Source: a virus
Length of the DNA: 64,000 bases
Virus record (IMG/VR): IMGVR_UViG_3300027974_000032
Span: 1-64,000 of that record
Strand: one strand, 5' to 3'
Below the pieces are notes generated by a model that was not told the DNA's origin, ran no database searches, and was given only the letters and a program-made list of their open reading frames with translations. Both the position numbers and the translations under genes were made by a program. Shown piece after piece: positions 6,342 to 33,124 of this stretch (position 1 is its first letter; each line of letters opens with the position of its first letter).

Positions 6342-6902
6342 ATGAGTATAATAGTTGCAACATATCCAAGGTCTGGTTCAACATACCTTACATTGTTATT
6401 TTCTTTTGCTTTTAATCAGAAAATTGATAAGGTACACCTTGATCAAGATGGTCAGTTAGAAGATTTAAAAAACTATGATTTTTCAATTGGAACAGTTAGA
6501 GAGCCAGTCGACTCTATTACATCAATTGTTGCCATGGAAGCACTTCATTTTAGAAACGGTGATGAATTTGAATCATATACAAATGAAACAATAGAAAAAA
6601 GAATAAAAGAGTATGTAAATTTTTATACATTATCACTTAGCAATATTGATCTATTATTTGATTACGATAAAATTAATTCTAAAAGGTTTGAAATTCTTGA
6701 TTATGTATCCACAGTTACTAATAATAAAATAATCAACAAAGAGTATATTGATTTAGTTAAAGATAGACCAGAAATAGGTTACTTAAGATCTTCAAAAACT
6801 TATGATCGATATGATTTAATAAGGGAAAAGGTTTTATCCTATGACCTATCTGAATGTTTTATCGTTTACAATAAGAACAAAATGCAGACTGTGGATCTTT
6901 AA
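6342..6902 (+). CDS. Sulfotransferase-like protein, paralog of the gene at 2293
   Basis: A 186-residue protein opening MSIIVATYPRSGSTYL, the PAPS 5'-phosphosulfate loop of sulfotransferases, followed by TVREPVDSITS with Arg53 and Ser61 for 3'-phosphate binding. It is collinear with the 183-residue protein at 2293-2844. There is no room for a ribosome binding site because tRNA-Glu ends at 6340, so translation probably relies on a processed leaderless message. Its last 44 bases overlap the 3' end of the convergent cupin gene. Acceptor substrate unknown. Confidence 0.7.
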   Translation: MSIIVATYPRSGSTYLTLLFSFAFNQKIDKVHLDQDGQLEDLKNYDFSIGTVREPVDSITSIVAMEALHFRNGDEFESYTNETIEKRIKEYVNFYTLSLSNIDLLFDYDKINSKRFEILDYVSTVTNNKIINKEYIDLVKDRPEIGYLRSSKTYDRYDLIREKVLSYDLSECFIVYNKNKMQTVDL

Positions 6903-31300: not shown

Positions 31301-31522
31301 TTACATACCCTTTATCTTGATTACTAGTTGACATGGGTCGCCACCTGCTTCCCACTCTTCTTGCTCTTCTTCTGTCATGTAAGGATCTCCTTCATGAGTA
31401 TTACAGAACGGTTCTGTGATCCATCCCCGCTCAATTCCATTTTCAAGCCAAATCTCAAACTCATTAAAGTCTGACTCTGTATCTTGAATATCCTTTAAAA
31501 TTTCATCAAATTCTTCGCTCAT
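31301..31522 (-). CDS. Actinophage-type hypothetical protein (73 aa)
   Basis: A 73-residue acidic protein ending in GDPCQLVIKI with an inner GWITEPFCNTHEGDPYMTEEEQEE segment. This C.THEG....EEE.....GDPC pattern is common in actinophage hypothetical proteins, supporting an actinobacterial host. The ATG lies six bases after a near-consensus -10, so the message is probably leaderless. It heads a short operon with the subtilase. Confidence 0.7.
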   Translation of the reverse strand: MSEEFDEILKDIQDTESDFNEFEIWLENGIERGWITEPFCNTHEGDPYMTEEEQEEWEAGGDPCQLVIKIKGM

Positions 31523-31528
31523 ATAATA

Positions 31529-31557
31529 AGTATACTACTAAGCGCTGACTACGTCAA
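31529..31557 (-). promoter_or_regulatory. Near-consensus promoter, leaderless placement
   Basis: Minus-strand TTGACG (31552-31557), 17-base spacer and TATACT (31529-31534), six bases ahead of the ATG at 31522. It lies in the 3' end of the proteasome-like gene. Confidence 0.75.
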
Positions 31558-32062
31558 CTGGGCCCATGCAAGATGGATTGAATTTAATTGCAGCAGAAAC
31601 TGCAGAGACAACACGATTTCTAGCATTTTTTTGTTTATCTGTTGCATATAAAACTCCGTAAGCATATTCTGCTCCAGACCCCATAGCAAGATATGGCAAT
31701 GTATATTTAGATAAAGACATATCTGCAGAACTGTGTTCGTATATCTCGCCACGTACTGCAATTAGTAAACCAAGATCACCATCTTTTGATGTATCAACCC
31801 AAAACTCATTATAAAACTCTTTGAGTTCTTTAATAAATCTAGTTTGCATAAACTTATCTGTATCTTTAATGTTTGGGGCAGATGGTTTAAAGTTATACCT
31901 AATTCTTTCACCATCCATTGCGCCAGCATATCCAATTAGATATGGACCAATTTTCCAAACCTTTGGTGCGTCTAATGCAAGAATCGTTCCATCATCTGAG
32001 GCACCACGATCTCCTGCCATATAGACTTTATCTTCATGACGGACTACAGCAATACATGTCAC
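31538..32062 (-). CDS. Proteasome-beta/HslV-like Ntn hydrolase
   Basis: A 174-residue protein starting MTCIAVV. After Met removal, the N-terminal Thr, the Asp in AGDRGASD and the Lys in DAPKVWKIG take positions 1, 17 and 33, exactly the catalytic residues of proteasome beta subunits. It continues with YLIGYAG, LGLLIAVRGEIYE and AMGSGAEYAYG, as in HslV-like folds. There is no propeptide. It could be a self-compartmentalising protease of the phage, or act with host factors. The presence of active residues is clear; the partner is unknown. Confidence 0.75.
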   Translation of the reverse strand: MTCIAVVRHEDKVYMAGDRGASDDGTILALDAPKVWKIGPYLIGYAGAMDGERIRYNFKPSAPNIKDTDKFMQTRFIKELKEFYNEFWVDTSKDGDLGLLIAVRGEIYEHSSADMSLSKYTLPYLAMGSGAEYAYGVLYATDKQKNARNRVVSAVSAAIKFNPSCMGPVDVVSA

Positions 32063-32074
32063 TTATAGTTTTCC

Positions 32075-32767
32075 TTACAGAATCTTTGGAAGTGGGAAAT
32101 AGTGTTGCTCCCAGAAATCTTCATGATCTTGAAGATCAGCATCTAAAAATGCTTCCTGAGTTAGAATTCGCATTGGCAAAACATCATAAGCAATTGTAAT
32201 TCTTTCGCCTTCCCATGCCCAATCTCCCATTGCATGAGGATAGCCAATTAATGAAAGTATTGCACGGTTATTCTTGTTATGATTAATCTTTTCTTGATCA
32301 TCAATCATGTAATGTGTTTGAGAAGGTTCTGCGTTTACAGAATAGTAGCCATGAAATGCTGGTACCTTAAAGTTTGGATCTAGATGATCATGCCAATCTA
32401 GTTTGCCACCCTTCGCTGTGCTATTAATATTAAACCATGCCTGTGCAACCCACTGCTCACTATTATAATCAATTTCATAATACTTACATGCTTCTCTTGT
32501 CATATCAACAACTGCAGAGTATAGTTCATGCATGAAAGGATAGTACATTTGAAAAGCATTGTACTCTCTTGACTTTTGAGTAGAAACTGATTTTGAGTAT
32601 GTAAAAATATCTAAAGTGTCACTATGTGGAGCAATCCCACGCATCTCACATTTTGCAATTCTTTCATATTCAAATTTTAAAGTGTCTGTTACATTTTTTA
32701 AATCAAGATCTAAATCTCTTGTAAAAAACTTTTGTGGTTTGCTATTTTTGTCAAATGGTTGATTCAT
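32075..32767 (-). CDS. 2OG-Fe(II) oxygenase-like protein
   Basis: A 230-residue homolog of 28430-29095: AWFNINSTAKGGKLDWHDHLD near residues 105-125, HGYYSVNAEPSQTHYM, then SLIGYPHAMGDWAWEGERITIAYDVLP. Here HLD follows HDH, so a true HxD pair is available, unlike in the paralog. The distal His is likely in GYPHA and the Arg in ERITIA. AAGGGG sits six bases before the ATG and is part of the inverted repeat at 32774-32816. Confidence 0.7.
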   Translation of the reverse strand: MNQPFDKNSKPQKFFTRDLDLDLKNVTDTLKFEYERIAKCEMRGIAPHSDTLDIFTYSKSVSTQKSREYNAFQMYYPFMHELYSAVVDMTREACKYYEIDYNSEQWVAQAWFNINSTAKGGKLDWHDHLDPNFKVPAFHGYYSVNAEPSQTHYMIDDQEKINHNKNNRAILSLIGYPHAMGDWAWEGERITIAYDVLPMRILTQEAFLDADLQDHEDFWEQHYFPLPKIL

Positions 32768-32773
32768 GACTAA

Positions 32774-32822
32774 CCCCTTCTAGGCTCTATATAAGTATAC
32801 CATTACCTAGAAGGGGAGTCAA
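32774..32822 (-). promoter_or_regulatory. Promoter inside an 11-bp inverted repeat that covers the ribosome site
   Basis: On the minus strand TTGACT (32817-32822), 17-base spacer, TATACT (32794-32799). The spacer begins with CCCCTTCTAGG and the leader ends with CCTAGAAGGGG (arms 32806-32816 and 32774-32784). AAGGGG in the second arm is the ribosome site of the gene at 32075-32767. A transcript from this promoter has one arm only; a read-through transcript has both and would fold over the site. Confidence 0.8.
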
Positions 32823-32839: not shown

Positions 32840-33124
32840 TTAATTAGCCTTCTTGTCTACCGTCTTAAACGCATCATTGATTTCTGCCAATGTGAGTTTG
32901 CCATCGTCCAAAAAATATCTTGCCAATTTTTCAACTACAGTTGCAACACCTAATAGTCCTGCTAAGCATACTGCCTGAACTGTATCAATTCCAACTACTG
33001 CTCCAGCACCAAGTACTGAGAGACCAGATGCTGCGAACACTGCTACAATTCTCATTAAAACATTTGTTAGGGCCTTTTGTGGGTGCTCTTTCTTTGGAGC
33101 CTCTACTACCTTTTTAGTTGCCAT
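32840..33124 (-). CDS. r1t-like holin
   Basis: A 94-residue protein with a basic N-terminus (MATKKVVEAPKKEHPQKAL), two hydrophobic spans (about residues 22-62) and a C-terminal KLARYFLDDGKLTLAEINDAF. This is the typical r1t-type holin pattern of actinophages. Holins make the membrane pores that let endolysin reach the wall. The start at 33124 has AAGGAGG nine bases upstream. Adjacent to a second hydrophobic protein. Confidence 0.8.
   Translation of the reverse strand: MATKKVVEAPKKEHPQKALTNVLMRIVAVFAASGLSVLGAGAVVGIDTVQAVCLAGLLGVATVVEKLARYFLDDGKLTLAEINDAFKTVDKKAN

Follow-up and report, generated by a model that had tools for sequence, protein, structure and literature searches.

In the fold-back inhibition known from IS10/Tn10, transposase RNA started at an outside promoter hides its ribosome site by folding, the first arm of the fold being absent from RNA that starts at the element's own promoter. 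A comparable logic has been described for phage T4, in which long upstream transcripts of gene e (lysozyme), and likewise of soc, 49 and I-TevI, sequester the ribosome site within a helix (PMC3014915). Promoters situated in the region of the first arm of gene e give transcripts that lack this arm and are well translated (PMC3014915), the late promoter box of this phage being TATAAATA (PMC3014915). Inverted repeats located just upstream of start codons, and in part resembling a Shine-Dalgarno (SD) sequence, are further known as the start-associated sequences (SAS/ESAS) of Cluster K mycobacteriophages (PMC3203893).

The element described here sits between two gene blocks of an uncultured phage and is probably a real and reusable switch of the kind known from phage T4. 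Its parts and its neighbours in the window (the whole stretch of 64,000 nucleotides that was analysed) are the following.

32840..33124, minus strand: gene of a 94-aa small membrane protein (open reading frame, PHROG 26427), the last gene of the upstream operon
32817..32822, minus strand: -35 box TTGACT; in read-through RNA, its last five letters (TGACT) also base-pair with AGTCA at the start codon
32806..32816, minus strand: arm 1, CCCCTTCTAGG, inside the promoter spacer, present in read-through RNA only, covarying with arm 2 in relatives
32794..32799, minus strand: -10 box TATACT with a TG ahead of it, located in the loop or inner helix of the hairpin
32786..32788, minus strand: transcription start predicted from promoter spacing, 6-8 nt past the -10 box and just ahead of arm 2
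32774..32784, minus strand: arm 2, CCTAGAAGGGG, which holds the SD sequence AAGGGG (32779-32774)
32075..32767, minus strand: first downstream gene, coding for an Fe(II)/2-oxoglutarate-type oxygenase of 230 aa (open reading frame, AlphaFold model, structure match)
31538..32062, minus strand: gene of an HslV-family peptidase, which stands directly behind the element in most relatives

Read from the letters, the order on the minus strand is TTGACT CCCCTTCTAGG TAATGG TATACT TATATAGAG CCTAGAAGGGG TTAGTC ATG. The original prediction had placed a near-consensus minus-strand promoter within a perfect 11-bp inverted repeat and had taken the distal arm for the ribosome site of the oxygenase gene, and in both respects it agrees with the letters and coordinates. 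The promoter predicted at 32822-32794 (TTGACT-17-TATACT) matches the consensus at 10 of 12 positions, the arms (32774-32784 and 32806-32816, with a spacing of 21 nt) are complementary at all 11 positions, and 6 nt separate AAGGGG (32779-32774) from the ATG at 32767. Arm 1 takes up most of the spacer between the -35 and -10 boxes, the -10 box lies in the loop, and arm 2 constitutes the ribosome site; beyond a 2-nt bulge, TGACT of the -35 box forms five further pairs with AGTCA, the last A of which is the A of the ATG. The -35 box follows the stop codon of the 94-aa gene at a distance of 17 nt. The 94-aa protein, holin-like by appearance only, is the last of two small membrane-type proteins which, together with a terminase and a PA14-domain protein, are encoded upstream on the same strand, and by this content the upstream operon is of late type. 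Downstream, no Pfam or PHROG family matched the product of 32075..32767; its AlphaFold model (pLDDT 86.7) matches Fe(II)/2-oxoglutarate dioxygenases, e.g. PHD2 and AsqJ, and because of this match the label "oxygenase" is right. Another promoter is found farther on at 31557-31529 (minus strand), with its -35 box within the 3' end of the HslV gene and its -10 box, TATACT, 6 nt before the ATG at 31522. Since the -10 box is only this far ahead of the ATG, the mRNA of the gene after HslV should be leaderless, and the same leaderless-type layout is kept behind HslV in most of about 80 relatives.

We consider it rather probable that the boundary element locks the translation of read-through RNA by the logic of T4 gene e. 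RNA reading through from the upstream structural and membrane-protein operon would carry both arms, these would form a hairpin of about -28 kcal/mol burying the SD of the first downstream gene, and with the SD buried this gene would not be expressed from such RNA. RNA from the nested promoter, in turn, would begin about 2-4 nt ahead of arm 2, would lack arm 1 and would keep the SD usable, the downstream gene thus being expressed solely from its own promoter. We infer the activity of this promoter, its start site, the effect on translation and the timing; the timing may be opposite to that of T4 gene e, with a late-type operon lying upstream and an ordinary host-type promoter within the element.

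Folding predictions are consistent with this proposal. The SD of the window element comes out as unpaired at a level of 0.001-0.002 in read-through RNA, whichever upstream and downstream ends are taken, and at about 0.5 in RNA starting at 32786-32788; the accessibility of the AUG scarcely differs between the long and the short RNA. Across 59 hairpin elements of the HslV type, the mean predicted SD opening is 0.02 in the long RNA, 0.46 in the short one and 0.33 after shuffling of arm 1, with 55 of the 59 falling below 5% of shuffles. The stem extends through the start codon in some relatives (L016, L019, L125, L160).

Within the window, a perfect 11-nt inverted repeat is not rare alone (1.35 expected per 64 kb from shuffles, two found), but a promoter-nested stem of such stability has this element as its sole match, scoring 29.5 where ten shuffled windows reach at most 24.5, and the RNA fold of the dyad region has a z of -4.7. 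The 75-kb record contains the exact dyad a single time. A scan of viral contigs for the exact dyad returned no match, as expected because the arm letters change among relatives, and a blastn search against annotated phages likewise gave none.

Relatives were collected with protein queries, namely the oxygenase, the HslV-like protein, and the 94-aa protein along with two of its divergent homologues. The 316 loci with a 94-aa gene yielded 191 distinct sequences after the stop codon. A candidate promoter and an open reading frame were both present in 145 of them, and of these 145 testable distinct junctions 118 have a strong promoter-nested stem. The covariation of the arms, which the original prediction had put forward as a check, is indeed seen: the arm letters differ widely (CCCCTTCTAGG, GCCCTCTCTGG, GGCCCCTTCAG, CATGCCTGCCTCT, CAAAGCCCCCTAGTG and others) and the pairing is kept. 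Outside the SD core, two to four types of Watson-Crick pairs are found at the stem positions, most of which show paired changes, and even the inner helix over the -10 box changes in pairs, GGTATA/TATACC becoming GGTACA/TGTATC where the -10 box is TACAAT; TTGAC of the -35 box shows no variation in 22 aligned elements. As MAFFT alignment shifted the arm registers between lineages, pairs were tabulated for each element in its own register, and the conservation of pairing is read from these tabulated pairs. The hairpin is missing from about ten HslV lineages.

The mismatches in the stems are informative on the level at which selection acts. With the register chosen by a score that penalizes G.U and A.C equally, 31 G.U were counted against two A.C; by cluster, 18 favour G.U and two favour A.C, the clusters not being fully independent. 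Part of this excess could stem from an AT mutation bias acting together with selection for a G-rich SD, but among pairs with a purine in arm 1, mostly outside the SD core, the count is 13 G.T against two A.C. The great surplus of G.U over A.C, in arms that have changed and yet stay paired, argues that selection acts on the sense RNA rather than on a DNA operator.

The hairpin is tied to what precedes it. Of 132 loci in which the 94-aa gene lies upstream, 131 have a hidden SD, as opposed to 5 of the 28 loci lacking this gene. The sisters L188 and L219 have arm 2 in common, but in L219 the upstream gene is a new one and arm 1 is missing. The tree resolves about five independent switches of the upstream gene, about four of them in the same direction (p 0.125), so the association with the 94-aa gene, as read from these sequences, is strong in counts and thin in independent events. 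Linkage could explain part of it, since arm 1 physically adjoins the upstream gene. Among annotated phages, the sole match of the 94-aa protein is in the metagenome-assembled DSL-LC01, in which it is followed by other genes.

The gene after the element, by contrast, varies: it may be the oxygenase gene, the HslV-like gene or a gene of at least two further families, among them a small acidic protein gene (L248, L249, L251, L254; resembling the window gene after HslV, 31301-31522) and a member of the MANAKT family (L245 and others). In the loci with an inserted oxygenase gene (L002, L016, L018, L019), HslV is preceded by a plain ribosome site and lacks a promoter. No relatives of the HslV-like gene were found in bacterial genome contigs. 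A like layout precedes diverged oxygenase genes in other contexts (L027, L035, L059, L080), with AT-rich arms around AGGAG, oxygenases of about 50% identity and different upstream genes, and these layouts possibly have independent origins. In L047, at about position 6444 (five loci of the same sequence), a 14-pair stem before yet another gene joins the promoter spacer to the ribosome site AAAAGGAG.

Some clades depart from this layout. In one (L003, L009, L010, L013-L015) the hairpin is kept and the SD lies downstream of it, an arrangement for which the read-through lock does not account. The hairpin logic of the original prediction is supported in part, by the folding, the paired changes of the arms, the G.U excess and the tie to the upstream operon, and does not extend to this clade. 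Upstream of 5001 in L003, and equally in L009, L010, L013 and L015, arm 2 may pair instead with an adjoining downstream TTTCCT-like sequence; a three-arm switch built on this pairing was considered and rejected, the predicted SD opening scarcely differing between the long and the short RNA. In L265, past the 94-aa gene, the same stem is followed by TTTTTT, the -35 box is decayed and a new leaderless-type promoter lies farther downstream, and judging from these features the element seems to have turned into a plain terminator.

The dyad, its nesting around a predicted promoter, its conservation through paired changes, the constraint at the RNA level and the tie to the operon boundary are computational observations, and several explanations other than a translational lock have been weighed against them. 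That the dyad is a product of chance and has no function is hardly credible: a perfect inverted repeat of 11 nt is expected about once per window, but the nested layout recurs in most of the distinct junctions, with arms that covary. Almost as hard to sustain is the repressor operator that the original prediction had offered as its alternative, i.e. a dimeric repressor binding both arms across the promoter. The arms are indeed symmetric and flank the -10 box about three helical turns apart, but their letters are wholly different in relatives with the same genes, no copies of the arm beyond chance are found elsewhere in the 64-kb window, and a preference for G.U, which is tolerated in the sense orientation where A.C is not, would not be expected of a DNA-binding dimer. 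Cutting of the read-through hairpin by an RNase III-type enzyme, which would split the two messages, is improbable as well. Such processing would suit an operon boundary with a long paired hairpin that is conserved at the RNA level, and phage T7 uses RNase III-type sites; however, the helix is continuous in some elements and interrupted by internal loops in others, no common cleavage motif was seen among them, and processing does not predict the burial of the SD or AUG.

An intrinsic terminator built around the promoter is a more serious competitor, even if we regard it as rather unlikely. It would mainly stop the polymerase of the upstream operon, the hiding of the SD being a by-product or a second layer, and it would account for the clade with the SD outside the hairpin, T7 tracts being present in L009 and L004. 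The interval from the 94-aa gene to its downstream neighbour holds no other terminator, the sequence after the stem is T-rich in relatives, averaging 4.7 T per 8 nt over 21 clusters where background leaders have 2.3, and homologous junctions carry a plain T6 terminator and a separate promoter (L265, and also L269 and L291-L293). On the other hand, the window has only TT after the stem (TTAGTCAT, 4 T of 8 with a longest run of 2), the arms lie about 20 nt apart, and the terminator scan did not list the element. The phage's own canonical intrinsic terminator at 35547-35519 (minus strand, between two structural-type genes), with 12 pairs, a 5-nt loop and T6, is unlike the element. The T-run is absent in L002, L125, L160 and the CTCTGTC leaders, and hairpin-less HslV leaders carry T-runs as long, T-run and hairpin being unrelated there. 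The translational lock and termination could also act together.

If the read-through lock is real, T4-style locking would be a conserved and portable boundary device in abundant uncultured phages and no peculiarity of T4, and natural pairs with and without it are available in L188 and L219 and in the loci with and without the 94-aa gene. More tentatively, the element may be a self-contained boundary of about 50 nt that unites a promoter, a ribosome site and a block to read-through (translational lock plus weak terminator) in a single hairpin, and in a large group of uncultured phages this boundary would be kept behind one upstream gene while the genes placed after it differ. The element represents a compact insulated-promoter design. 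Literature searches among open-licence papers gave no direct precedent for a promoter nested in a terminator.

Compared with the known systems, the element differs from the Cluster K SAS/ESAS, which exist as many near-identical GGGATAGGAGCCC-like copies per genome and are conserved in sequence, whereas here a single copy of different sequence occurs in the record and the pairing, not the sequence, is conserved. The fold-back of IS10/Tn10 differs in belonging to the end of a mobile element, with other sequence and genes. The likeness to T4 gene e, claimed in the original prediction, consists in read-through RNA with both arms, the SD in the distal arm and pairing conserved in relatives; it is a likeness of mechanistic class by prediction and not homology, the T4 case having been proven by experiment. 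It does not include the type of promoter: in T4 the promoters are phage late promoters and the lock acts on early read-through, whereas here the sigma-70-like TTGACT/TATACT looks host-type (TTGACa/TATAcT) and the upstream operon is late-type by content. Finally, unlike T4 gene e, the element of the window stays with the operon boundary and stands before different genes.
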